Assembly (NCBI RefSeq): GCF_003721435.2
Contig: NZ_CP054585.1
Span: 2,108,001-2,172,000 of the forward strand
DNA from: Halorubrum sp. CBA1229
GTDB lineage: Archaea; Halobacteriota; Halobacteria; Halobacteriales; Haloferacaceae
Direction: 5' to 3'
DNA length: 64,000 nt
Part shown: in pieces, positions 51,705 to 57,478 of the stretch
Numbering within the stretch: position 1 is the stretch's first letter
Layout of the letters: every line of letters starts with the position of its first letter
The notes under the pieces: generated by a model
What the model saw: the letters and a program-made list of their open reading frames with translations, nothing else
Told to the model about the DNA's origin: nothing
Databases searched by the model: none
Translations under genes and position numbers: made by a program

Positions 51705-52868
51705 CTATCCGAGATCGGCGACGATCCACGGCTTCTCGTCCGGGTCGTACTCGTCGATCGCCCCGCTGTGGCTCCGCGTCTCCGGCGCGAGCACGCCGAC
51801 GTGTTTCAGCTGCTGGACGAAGTTGAAGAGGACGTTGTTGCGGACCACGTCCGTCCACACCGCACGGTCCCGATAGAGGCGAGCTGTCCGCCCCCGCTCG
51901 ATCAGCTTCCGCGCCCGCGTGGCCCCACGCGTCGTGCAGAAGGCGCTCAGGAAGACGTTCGGGTACTCGCGGACCAGCCGCTTGACGAGATCGAGGAAGT
52001 GAACGCGCGGCCCCTCCTTGCGGAGCGCGTCGAGCAGCAGGCCGAACTCCGGGTGCTTGGAAAACGAGTTCCGGAGGAGCACCGCGAGCGGCGGGTGGAC
52101 CGCCGCGACCGTGCGCCGCGAGACGTCCGCTTTCGTCAGGCGGAGGTCGTCGAGGTCCTCGACTCCGTAGCCGCGGAGCACCGTCGCGGCCAACTCCCCC
52201 TGCGAGGTCAGCTCGTGGGGCGACCCGAGCGCGAGGAGGCCGAGCGTCCGCGCGCTCGCGACGGCCTCGTCGCCGGCGCCGAACCCGTACTCGTCGGCGA
52301 TGATGTCGACGAGCCCGTCGCGTGCGAGCGGCCCGTACCGGTCGACCGCGACGACCGGCGCGAGGTAGTTCAGCGGCTGCGCGAGGCTCAGCGTCGTGAT
52401 ATCGCCGCCGAACTCGTTCCTGCGGAGCCGCACCGACAACTGCCCTTCGATGTCCGCGACCTCCTCGGTCGATTCGGCGCTCGGCGGATCGCTCCACGAG
52501 GTCGCTCCGTCACCGTCGACGCCGATGACGCCGACGCCCTTCGACCGGAGCAGGGTCTCGTGGGGCGCGACGGCCTCGCCGTCGCCCGCGAGGTACGAGA
52601 CGTGCGCGCCCTGCTGGTAGGTCATCGCCTGCCCGATACCGCGGAGGAGGTTCCGCGATCCCTTCACTTCGATCGCGAACACGCGGTCCGCGTCGGTGAA
52701 GCCGAGCACGTCCGGGTACCGCCCCCGGATCGTTATCTCGTGGCGGCGACACCGGTCGAGCACGTCCGCGTACGTCTCGCTGTGGGCCTCCGGCACGTGC
52801 ACCAGCGGTTCGTAGTTCCGCTCGTCGAGCGCGGTCACCACCCGGTCGAACACCGCCGCCTCGTCCAT
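51705..52868 (-). CDS. PD-(D/E)XK nuclease-like protein of unknown function
   Basis: A 387-residue protein. The N-terminal domain shows the restriction-endonuclease-fold pattern: D53 (RYPDVLGFTDADR), E67-x-K69 (FAIEVKGSRN) and Q80 (GQAMTYQQGAH). The rest is mixed helix/strand with probable winged-helix segments (DVSRRTVAAVHPPLAVLLRNSFSKH) and no domain I can name. A complete D-ExK-Q set suggests an active nuclease or a DNA-binding derivative. It stands next to rdfA and the SMC-like gene but has its own AT-rich promoter region, so a functional link is only a hypothesis. Confidence 0.75.
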   Translation of the reverse strand: MDEAAVFDRVVTALDERNYEPLVHVPEAHSETYADVLDRCRRHEITIRGRYPDVLGFTDADRVFAIEVKGSRNLLRGIGQAMTYQQGAHVSYLAGDGEAVAPHETLLRSKGVGVIGVDGDGATSWSDPPSAESTEEVADIEGQLSVRLRRNEFGGDITTLSLAQPLNYLAPVVAVDRYGPLARDGLVDIIADEYGFGAGDEAVASARTLGLLALGSPHELTSQGELAATVLRGYGVEDLDDLRLTKADVSRRTVAAVHPPLAVLLRNSFSKHPEFGLLLDALRKEGPRVHFLDLVKRLVREYPNVFLSAFCTTRGATRARKLIERGRTARLYRDRAVWTDVVRNNVLFNFVQQLKHVGVLAPETRSHSGAIDEYDPDEKPWIVADLG

Positions 52869-54017: not shown

Positions 54018-55985
54018 TCAGTCGATCTGCTCGACGTACGTGTACTCCTCGGAGAGCGCGGCGGCGTCCTCGGGCAGCAGGGCGGCGACGAGGAAGTCGG
54101 CGTGGTCGCGGAAGTAGTCGACCACGCGCGCGATGCGGTCCGAGTCGATCGCCTCCAGCGAGTCGAGGACGATGAACGGCACCGTCTCGTGGACGTCGTG
54201 GACCAGGTATCCCGCCAGCGCGAACACCAGTCCGGTCACCTCGCGCTCGCTCTCCGAGAGGTGGTCGACGGTGTCCTCGTACGCCGCCCCGTCGGGCGAC
54301 GAGCGGACGATGTGCAGATCGAACCGCGTTCGGGTGACGGTCCGGCGCCCCTCGCGCACGTCGGTCTCGCGGCGCTCGATCCAGATCCGGTCGAGGTTCT
54401 CGTACCCGAGAATGTCGAGGACCGTCGCCATGTGCTCGTTGAACTCCTCGACGGCCCCCTCCTCCAACCGATCGACTCGGGTGCGCAGCTCCGTCAGCCG
54501 CTCCGCGACCGCTTCGCGCTCCGCCTCCAACTCCTCGCGCCGTTCGATCGCGGCCTCCCGCTCGTCGATCTCCGCGTCGAGTTCCTCGATCTCCGATTCG
54601 AGCCGCTCGACCCGGAGCTCGATCTCGTTGGCTTCGCGGTGGCGCTCCAGCGTCTCCTCGTGGCCGTCCACGTCGATCGATTCGGCCTCCGCCTCCAGCT
54701 CCTCGATCTCCGTCCGCTTCGCCTCGATCGCCGCCTCCAGCTCCTCGATTCGCGACTCGGTCGACGCGATCTCCGTCTCGACCGCGTCGAGCCGCTCTTC
54801 GGCGCGCTCGGCCTCGCGCTGCGCCTCGCGGAGCGCGGACTGCCTGTCGGTCAGCTCCTGGATCTCCGCGCGGAGCTCGCTGCGCTCGTCGAGCCGCTCC
54901 GACCGGAGGTCCCGGAGGCGGTCGAGCGTCGTCTCGATCTGTCCGGTCTCCACCGCGGAGCCGCAGGTCCAACACGTCGTCCGGTCGTCGCCGGTCAGCG
55001 CGTCGGTCGGACTGTCGTCGGGCTGAGACGCGCCGGCGGCGTCGACCGCGTCGCCGCCGCTCCGGTCCACGTCGATGGCGGGCGCCGTGCCCTCGAGCAT
55101 GTCCTCGTTGAAGCTGATGACGCTGCCGAGCTCGTTGATCGCGTCGTCGAGCGCGCGCTGGCGACGCCGCAGCTCGTCGATGCGCCCCGCGAGCTCGTCG
55201 GGGCTCTCGTCGGGCTCCCGCGTCGACTCGACCGTCTCCCGGAGCTCGTCGCGCTCCGACTCCAGCTCCGTCAGCGTCGACCGCTCCGTCTCGAGGTCGA
55301 ACTGGAGGTCGTCGAGCTCCGAACGCGCGTCGCGAACCCGCTGGAACGCGTCCTCGAGCTCCTGTTTGCGCGTCCGGCTCTCCTCGACGCCGGCGTCGAG
55401 GTCCGCCAACTCCTCCCGGACCGCCTCGAGCTCCGCCTCCGCGTCGTCGAGCTCCGCCCGCTTCTCCCGGCGCTCGGCCTCGAGGTCGGGCAGTTCGCGT
55501 TCCAGCCCGTCCAGCCGGTCGATCTCGTCTTCCAGCTCGCTCCGTTCCCGCTTGCATTCTTGGATCTCGGCGTCGATCGACTCCGTATCGATCGGCCGCA
55601 TGATGATCTCTTGGAGGTCGTCGCCGCGCGCGACGGCCCGACGCGCCTCGTTGTTCTCCAGCAGGAACGCGAACAGGTCCGCGAGCTCCGGGTCGTCGAG
55701 GTACGGGTCGCCGCCGAACGCGACGGAATCGCCCCGCCGCGTCAGCGTTCGGGTGTACGTCTCGTCCCCGAGTTCGAGGGTCACCGACCCCTCGTCGGCG
55801 TCGCCCTTCAGCGAGCTCCGCCGGCTCCCGAGCCCGGCCATCAGCGCCTGCAGGAAGGAGGTCCGGTTCGTCGCGTTCCGCCCGGCCAACACGGAGACGC
55901 CCTCGGGGAGGGTCACGGTCGCCTCGTCGATGCCGCCCACGTTCCGGACGTCAACGCGGACGACCGATTGAGAGGTCTGAGTCAT
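54018..55985 (-). CDS. archaea-specific SMC-related (Rad50-like) protein with degenerate ATPase motifs
   Basis: A 655-residue protein with a Rad50/SMC plan: an N-terminal head (VVRVDVRNVGGIDEATVTLPEGVSVLAG), long coiled coil (about 130-545) broken by a zinc-hook-like CWTC (about 337-340), and a C-terminal head with signature-like LSESEREVTG (about 575). The Walker A region reads GRNATNRT (35-42), lacking the Lys of GxxGxGK(S/T). Walker B reads FIVLDSLEAID, with Ser where the catalytic Glu is expected. It is probably partner to RdfA in cell-shape control. The nucleotide chemistry is doubtful. Confidence 0.85.
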   Translation of the reverse strand: MTQTSQSVVRVDVRNVGGIDEATVTLPEGVSVLAGRNATNRTSFLQALMAGLGSRRSSLKGDADEGSVTLELGDETYTRTLTRRGDSVAFGGDPYLDDPELADLFAFLLENNEARRAVARGDDLQEIIMRPIDTESIDAEIQECKRERSELEDEIDRLDGLERELPDLEAERREKRAELDDAEAELEAVREELADLDAGVEESRTRKQELEDAFQRVRDARSELDDLQFDLETERSTLTELESERDELRETVESTREPDESPDELAGRIDELRRRQRALDDAINELGSVISFNEDMLEGTAPAIDVDRSGGDAVDAAGASQPDDSPTDALTGDDRTTCWTCGSAVETGQIETTLDRLRDLRSERLDERSELRAEIQELTDRQSALREAQREAERAEERLDAVETEIASTESRIEELEAAIEAKRTEIEELEAEAESIDVDGHEETLERHREANEIELRVERLESEIEELDAEIDEREAAIERREELEAEREAVAERLTELRTRVDRLEEGAVEEFNEHMATVLDILGYENLDRIWIERRETDVREGRRTVTRTRFDLHIVRSSPDGAAYEDTVDHLSESEREVTGLVFALAGYLVHDVHETVPFIVLDSLEAIDSDRIARVVDYFRDHADFLVAALLPEDAAALSEEYTYVEQID

Positions 55986-56037: not shown

Positions 56038-56135
56038 GCGTCGGTCCGCCGCGCCGGTGCGCGTCGGTCCGCCGCGCTGGTGCGCCTCACTGCGCGCCCG
56101 CCGTTACGGACTCACCGCGCGCCCGCCGTTACGAC
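56038..56135. repeat. two adjacent tandem duplications (23 bp x2, 25 bp x2)
   Basis: A 23-base unit at 56038-56060 recurs at 56061-56083 with one mismatch. A different 25-base unit at 56086-56110 recurs at 56111-56135 with a few mismatches. The second pair includes the stop codon of the LarA-like gene (56129-56131). The stretch separates that gene from the SMC-like gene's promoter. Confidence 0.85.
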
Positions 56136-57478
56136 TCGCCGCCTCCCGTCTCGTGCGGGGTCGGCGCGGCGAACTGTCCGTCGTCGAACTCGATCGGTGT
56201 CGGCTCCGCGACGACTCGCAGGTCGTCGCGCTCGCGGGCCGCTTCGACGAGCGCAGGGGAGGCGTACAGCCGGTCGAGCCGCATCGTGTCCGTCGCTCGG
56301 AGCACGCGGGCGTCGTCCGGGCCGACGACGCCGACGGTCGACAGCGACGCGACGAGGCCGGCGCGGTCCGTCTCGACGACCGGTGGCAGCCTGACGCCCC
56401 GCGTCGTGCTCGCGGTGATCGCGTTGATGAGCGTGGTCGAGCTGTCGAGCTCGGCGGCCAGGTCCCGGTGGACGAAGTCCGCGGACCCCATCCCCATGGC
56501 GTTGCCGTGGGTCGTCTCGGTCAGCCCCCGCACGAAGATCCGCTTGACGTCGGGGAGCTCCGGCTCCGGCTCGTTGATCGCGAACGGGCGGCGACCGATC
56601 ACGTTCGTGTCCATCCCCTGTCCGCTGACGTCTTTCCCCTGCCGGTCGAGGATCAGCACGTCGACGTCATCGAAGGGGATCGTCGGCAGGCGGTCGTAGG
56701 CGAGCTCCAACAGCTCCGCCTCGCGGTCGAGGAACCCGGACGGGGGGACGCCCTCGATCACGGCGGTGTCGTCGAACTGGTCCTCGACGATCGCGACGCC
56801 GCCCGCGACCGGGAGCTCGGCCAGCAGCTTCTCCGCGATCTCCGGGATCATGTTCCGGAAGCTCCAGTCGACCGCCCACTCGTGGGCCGTCTTCGCCCCG
56901 CGCTGTTTCCCCATGCCGATGACGAGCATCTTCGAGAGCCCGCTCTCGACGGGGCCGTCGTAATCGGTGTGGGGCTTCACCCGGTTGACCGGAACGATCG
57001 CGTCGGCGGCGGCGGCGTGGGCGTCCGCGTAGACGGGGACGCCACGGTCCGGGGTCTCGCCGACCTGAACGACCTCCATGCTCGATCGGATCTCGCAGCC
57101 GATCGCGTCCGGGGTCACCCCGAGGGATTCGAGCATCTCCCGCTGGCCCGCCGCGGTCGCCCCGCCGTGGCTCCCCATCGCCGGGAACACGAAGGGGTCG
57201 TAGCCGGCGTCCCGAACCGCACCGACGACGCCGGCCACGATCGCCGGGAGGTTAGCGATCCCGCGGCTGCCGGCGCCGACGGCGACCTCGCCGCCGTCGG
57301 GTACGCCGTCGAAATCGAGCGACGCCACCGCCGCCGCGGCCGCGGCCTCGATGCGCTCGCTCGGGATGGGGTCGGTGTCCCACCTGCGCTCGATGAGCCC
57401 CAGGTCCGGGAGCGGTCGGGCGCCGCACGCGTCGAGCACCGTCGCCTCGGGCACGACGAGGTCGTCGAGAGTGTCCAT
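56129..57478 (-). CDS. LarA-like (DUF2088) protein, nickel-dependent lactate racemase family
   Basis: A 449-residue protein of the DUF2088/LarA superfamily. The N-terminal Rossmann-like domain carries VAVGAGSRGIANLPAIV. The substrate-loop FPAMGSHGGATAAGQREMLESLGV (about 136-159) and RVKPHTDYDGPVESGLSKMLVIGMGK (about 204-229) hold His and Lys positions known in LarA (SHGG, KPH). LarA racemises lactate with a nickel-pincer cofactor; many relatives racemise or epimerise other 2-hydroxyacids. No LarB/C/E cofactor genes are in the window. Confidence 0.85.
   Translation of the reverse strand: MDTLDDLVVPEATVLDACGARPLPDLGLIERRWDTDPIPSERIEAAAAAAVASLDFDGVPDGGEVAVGAGSRGIANLPAIVAGVVGAVRDAGYDPFVFPAMGSHGGATAAGQREMLESLGVTPDAIGCEIRSSMEVVQVGETPDRGVPVYADAHAAAADAIVPVNRVKPHTDYDGPVESGLSKMLVIGMGKQRGAKTAHEWAVDWSFRNMIPEIAEKLLAELPVAGGVAIVEDQFDDTAVIEGVPPSGFLDREAELLELAYDRLPTIPFDDVDVLILDRQGKDVSGQGMDTNVIGRRPFAINEPEPELPDVKRIFVRGLTETTHGNAMGMGSADFVHRDLAAELDSSTTLINAITASTTRGVRLPPVVETDRAGLVASLSTVGVVGPDDARVLRATDTMRLDRLYASPALVEAARERDDLRVVAEPTPIEFDDGQFAAPTPHETGGGES

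Follow-up and report, generated by a model that had tools for sequence, protein, structure and literature searches.

An invariant Arg/Ser pair at the ATP site of a haloarchaeal subfamily of ASRP/Sph-type SMC-related proteins

Introduction

Proteins of the SMC superfamily are generally understood to be ATP-cycling machines. The window analysed here, a stretch of 64,000 nucleotides from Halorubrum sp. CBA1229, contains a gene whose product shares the overall architecture of these proteins, and which a first-pass annotation had described as a Rad50-like machine that kept this architecture, lost the standard hydrolysis residues, and could be a structural or nucleotide-sensing scaffold. The locus raises the question of what kind of protein this is, whether its unusual ATP site is a defect of one gene or a maintained feature of a family, and what such a site might still do.

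The ASRP family was described in 2022 (Yoshinaga) and unites ClsN from Sulfolobus with the haloarchaeal Sph proteins (PMC9389158). Haloferax volcanii possesses four Sph proteins; Sph3 and RdfA are required for the formation of rods (PMC10869688), all four Sph affect gene conversion, and sph2 and sph4 cannot be deleted together (PMC11276520). One report names Sph3 as plate-promoting (PMC13286277), which conflicts with the finding that a delta-sph3 strain is unable to form rods (PMC10869688, PMC11276520). A word search of these last two papers, in which Sph is treated as SMC-like, returned no mention of Walker motifs; while the family itself is known, the fixed Arg/Ser pattern described below appears to be undescribed.

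Results

Family assignment and predicted fold

By its sequence, the Halorubrum protein belongs to the Sph2/3/4 type of haloarchaeal ASRPs. It matches the NCBIfam ASRP model NF045487 along the entire profile (positions 1-593 of 593) with 689 bits, against a cut-off of 300, while the NCBIfam Rad50 models reach at most 63 bits against a cut-off of 700, with their best stretch in the coiled coil. An odd Rad50 is ruled out by these scores. Of the Rad50-like machine first proposed, the architecture and the absence of the standard hydrolysis residues therefore stand, and the family assignment does not. The Arcadin-4 model NF053563 gave a weak match (E 0.011). In control searches, a Sulfolobus acidocaldarius protein, presumably ClsN, also scored above the ASRP cut-off, and a search of the PDB by sequence returned no ASRP. 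With the haloarchaeal Sph2/3/4 group the protein shares the family model, length, zinc hook, short coiled coil and RdfA neighbour, and it shows no difference from its own clade. Arcadin-4 is SMC-related, as is ASRP, and is tied to cell shape and the cytoskeleton, yet it falls with Rad50 and away from ASRP in the published tree (PMC9389158).

A monomer without nucleotide was modelled by AlphaFold from an alignment of 104 sequences, from which the plasmid-derived row had been left out. The model is predicted with a pLDDT of 90.9 overall and of about 93-98 in the head blocks, and in it the N- and C-terminal halves of the head flank a coiled coil that bears the zinc hook. Its P-loop strand (29-34) and the following helix (38-51) occupy the same places as in an SMC head, and so does the Walker B strand (604-607). 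A structure search returned Rad50 (7zr1, E 7.6e-16), Smc5/6, MukB and Lamassu as the best PDB matches, and the head is thus confidently predicted to adopt a Rad50/SMC-type fold. The likeness to Rad50/SbcC extends to the CxxC zinc hook and the coiled coil, although the latter is much shorter in the Halorubrum protein, and Mre11 is found on neither flank of its gene, where RdfA and a nickel-pincer isomerase are encoded instead. Furthermore, Rad50 carries GxNGxGKS, LSGGE, LDEPT and an H-loop histidine, and the Halorubrum protein differs from it at all four.

The altered ATP site

The positions of the gene and of its motifs are collected in Table 1. Translation, alignment and the AlphaFold model all agree with the head, coiled coil, hook and signature-like motif as first annotated, and the non-canonical Walker A and Walker B readings reported there hold as well. 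Both Walker positions can be aligned with those of other ASRPs, and the Walker A lysine, the third P-loop glycine and the catalytic glutamate are all replaced. Set against the alignment columns of 214 homologues, the Halorubrum protein has Arg41 for the lysine and Asn40 for the third glycine; in Walker B, Ser609 stands in place of the catalytic glutamate, followed two residues later by Glu611 and then by the D-loop aspartate, Asp614. Since residues 35-37 are modelled in the strand-to-helix turn of the P-loop (pLDDT about 97), Arg41 is predicted to occupy the position of the Walker A lysine. No second canonical P-loop lysine was found elsewhere in the head; Lys60 is conserved in 175 of 176 homologues of the arginine-bearing type, yet it lies well past the P-loop helix. 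The H-loop region reads FLVAALLPEDA and contains no histidine; in the alignment, no class of ASRP regularly has a histidine there.

Table 1. Positions of the ASRP gene, its motifs and the RdfA-type genes. Coordinates refer to the window unless a locus is named.
Feature	Position	Strand	Basis or remark
ASRP/Sph-type SMC-related protein gene	54018..55985	-	ORF call; 655 aa, whole gene including stop
Walker A position GRNATNRTS, residues 35-43	55857..55883	-	Translation; alignment columns counted over 214 homologues
Zinc-hook motif CWTC, residues 338-341	54963..54974	-	No variation at either Cys among 176 R-type homologues
Signature motif LSESE, residues 576-580, instead of LSGGE/Q	54246..54260	-	Ser577 and Glu580 invariant
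Walker B and D-loop FIVLDSLEAID, residues 604-614	54144..54176	-	Homologue alignment columns
RdfA, rod-determining factor A, 207 aa	53315..53938	-	Pfam PF21811, 232 bits (cut-off 27); downstream of ASRP gene
RdfA-like gene directly beside Methanosarcinales-type ASRP	L157:2811-3470	-	
RdfA-like gene directly beside Methanosarcinales-type ASRP	L155:5390-6148	+	
RdfA-like gene directly beside Methanosarcinales-type ASRP	L156:2889-3545	-	
RdfA-like gene directly beside Methanosarcinales-type ASRP	L159:2647-3381	-	

Motif states across the family

ASRPs were collected from genome contigs, 194 Halobacteria genomes, 393 genomes of the phylum and plasmids. Two of the 216 aligned rows lack the N-terminus, which leaves 214 readable sequences, 203 haloarchaeal and 11 non-haloarchaeal, and these were classed by Walker A positions 6-7 together with the residue after the Walker B aspartate. 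Because the sample is skewed towards relatives of the Halorubrum protein, the proportions of the classes are not frequencies, but the coupling of Arg with Ser is unaffected: all 176 proteins with arginine (R-type) have serine in Walker B (NR/Ser 172, HR/Ser 3, GR/Ser 1). The NK class is paired with alanine in 10 of 10 cases. Among the 17 haloarchaeal GK proteins, the residue next to the aspartate is Gly in 12, Arg in 3, and Gln and Ser in one each, so that none of the 203 haloarchaeal ASRPs whose Walker A can be read has the catalytic glutamate. The 11 non-haloarchaeal ASRPs are all GK, with Glu in 8, Asn in 2 and Asp in 1. Methanosarcinales ASRPs, such as METHO_RS12130 from Methanomethylovorans hollandica, belong to the same family, possess the zinc hook and in several cases have an RdfA-like neighbour, yet they keep both residues lost from the Halorubrum protein, with PNASGKTS in Walker A and LDELT(Y/F)LD in Walker B.

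At the DNA level, the pattern GxNATNRT was present in 151 of the 194 Halobacteria genomes, while the reversed control gave two stray hits. Many genomes hold several Sph paralogues. In each of two Haloferax genomes, a GK type lacking Glu is accompanied by two NR/Ser proteins. A further ASRP in one of these two genomes (locus L262) is more decayed (GDAADRTS, LAESE, VFDSLGAID), with Arg and Ser still in place. In the Halorubrum genome itself, two Rad50-type proteins read GLNGSGKSS and GKNGAGKST, each with LDEPT, and the one other ASRP of this genome, a Sph1-type paralogue on the second contig, reads ASNFQGKSS with VDG, having kept the lysine without the glutamate. The arginine is therefore not a genome-wide trait.

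Conservation of the altered site

The 176 R-type proteins are diverse: among randomly sampled pairs, the median identity is 50% and the minimum 26%. N37, A38, T39, R41, S43 and both hook cysteines are nevertheless invariant among them, as are S577, E578, E580, D608, S609, E611 and D614. Across the same genes Arg41 and Ser609 are each encoded by six different codons, and this invariance at the protein level excludes a broken gene or chance. Whether the substitutions are fixed, a point raised when the gene was first annotated, is thereby answered, and the altered site proves to be the property of a whole clade, not of a single protein. This pattern argues that purifying selection, and not decay, keeps the altered ATP site. 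N40, K60, H596 and E611 are common to the R-type and NK/Ala proteins, whereas the GK types have them rarely or not at all.

Trees of the head were built with the motif columns left out. Non-haloarchaeal GK/Glu proteins take the outside position, the Sph1-type GK proteins, which lack Glu, group in a single clade, and the NK/Ala and NR/Ser proteins make up the remainder. Within it, NK/Ala occupies two places and a single NK/Ala clade is rejected (AU p 0.002), from which it follows that the joint switch between Lys/Ala and Arg/Ser took place on at least two occasions. A single R-type clade is broken in the best tree, yet it is not rejected by the AU test (p 0.094). An independent-pairs test of the link between Arg and Ser found agreement in both supported pairs, a number (n=2) that cannot reach significance. 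The simplest order of events, by parsimony over weakly supported inner branches, is loss of Glu, then replacement of Gly by Asn, and then the switch between Lys and Arg; GK without Glu (Sph1) and NK with Ala are both seen as intermediates.

Discussion

The explanation that we favour, with a probability of roughly 0.55, is that R-type ASRPs carry an ABC-type head that has lost hydrolysis while keeping its pocket and dimer interface, and that, together with RdfA, they would serve as a clamp or scaffold that does not cycle. The paired, fixed substitutions, GK to NR in Walker A and Glu to Ser in Walker B, would abolish ATP hydrolysis, and the remainder of the nucleotide pocket, together with the interface between the heads, would stay under strong selection. 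The heads would retain nucleotide binding, or would at the very least form dimers like those of the nucleotide-bound state, and such a head dimer, combined with pairing through the hook, would yield a long-lived clamp or scaffold instead of a cycling motor. In rod formation, the protein would then act with RdfA, possibly as its physical partner. The structural or nucleotide-sensing scaffold that had been suggested for the gene fits this evidence.

Both substitutions have precedents among degenerate ABC sites (PMC7756269): ABCC7/CFTR shows Glu to Ser, and ABCG5/G8 shows Lys to Arg. In Walker A Lys-to-Arg mutants, hydrolysis is often lost while ATP binding persists, although there are exceptions (PMC6254361, PMC9769622). 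In light of these precedents, hydrolysis has likely been lost in R-type ASRPs, and the balance tips slightly towards retained nucleotide binding or a bound-like head dimer. CFTR and ABCG5/G8, however, are membrane transporters with two unlike sites, whereas the Halorubrum protein combines both changes in one SMC-like polypeptide; and while CFTR retains one working site beside its degenerate one, a homodimer of the Halorubrum protein would have none.

Two features of the site weigh against the favoured explanation, and each leads to a rival. First, the change in the third P-loop glycine could conceivably close the pocket. In that case the protein would be a pure pseudo-ATPase that binds no nucleotide and forms a static coiled-coil part of an intermediate-filament-like scaffold. 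Together with Lys to Arg, Gly to Asn does alter the P-loop twice; the K694R mutant of Msh2 loses ATP binding (PMC6254361); and Sph3 has been suggested to have a cytoskeletal function (PMC10869688). Yet N37, T42/S43, D608, S577, E580 and D614, for which a dead pocket would have no use, are all invariant or nearly so over the 176 proteins, and we consider this explanation unlikely.

Second, the invariant Glu611 might be a displaced general base, in which case hydrolysis would be rearranged, with Arg41 taking over from the lysine and Glu611 activating the water. As Glu611 is invariant in the R-type and NK/Ala proteins and nearly absent from the GK types, it appears to have arisen with the altered site, and the switching of Arg/Ser and Lys/Ala as pairs could likewise point to a reorganised mechanism. 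However, a residue three past the Walker B aspartate corresponds to the threonine of LDELTYLD in the canonical relatives, a non-catalytic position, and we know of no SMC or ABC precedent for a glutamate displaced in this manner. Rearranged hydrolysis is hence quite improbable.

Hydrolysis might also be supplied by another subunit, if the protein formed heterodimers with an SMC-family member that is itself competent for catalysis. In heteromers, degenerate ABC sites are often accompanied by a working one (PMC7756269), and the several Sph paralogues of many genomes would offer candidates for pairing; the zinc hook, though, suggests pairing inside the family, and given that no haloarchaeal ASRP carries the catalytic glutamate, no Sph:Sph pair could hold a canonical site, which makes a competent partner very improbable. 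Finally, although lysine is generally depleted in haloarchaeal proteins, salt adaptation devoid of functional meaning is strongly disfavoured as the cause of Lys to Arg by the lysines kept in the Rad50-type proteins (GSGKSS and GAGKST, with the catalytic Glu) and the Sph1-type paralogue (QGKSS) of the same genome, and it would leave Glu to Ser unexplained.

A large conserved clade seems to have discarded hydrolysis with the site still under selection, and in Haloferax rod shape or gene conversion depends on some of its members. More tentatively, and at a little under even odds, the whole class Halobacteria may run cell shape, and possibly the maintenance of genome copies, with non-hydrolysing SMC-family proteins. 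The ATP site of a working ASRP ATPase would then have been converted stepwise into a fixed Arg/Ser site that serves as a clamp, either permanent or sensing, and RdfA would be its ancient partner. With relatives intact in Lys and Glu, intermediates and a tractable host all at hand, SMC-like function without an ATP cycle is directly testable.

The cell-shape gene noted beside the ASRP gene at first annotation is indeed rdfA. Of the 173 R-type loci with enough flank, 117 have RdfA as a same-strand neighbour, and it adjoins 12 of the 16 haloarchaeal GK genes. To our knowledge, descriptions of RdfA otherwise come from haloarchaea, but RdfA-like genes also adjoin four Methanosarcinales-type ASRPs, two of them scoring above the Pfam cut-off of 27 (53 and 35 bits) and two below it (26 and 22 bits), which suggests that the pair of RdfA and ASRP is older than the haloarchaea and first existed with an intact ATPase. 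RdfA carries a conserved C-terminal CxxC...CxC, and its AlphaFold model is mostly helical (pLDDT 91.5); a structure search returned no PDB relative better than E 1, and the modelled fold is possibly undescribed. A third RdfA is encoded in the same genome (G000:C1:1529106-1529681, L255), with no ASRP gene adjacent within the stretch read. Within the window, an ORF of 387 aa between the 2-oxoacid dehydrogenase genes and rdfA (51705-52868, minus strand) has no Pfam or NCBIfam match, and the gene just upstream of the ASRP gene (56129-57478, minus strand) encodes a nickel pincer cofactor-dependent isomerase, group 22 (NF052515, 485.7 bits).
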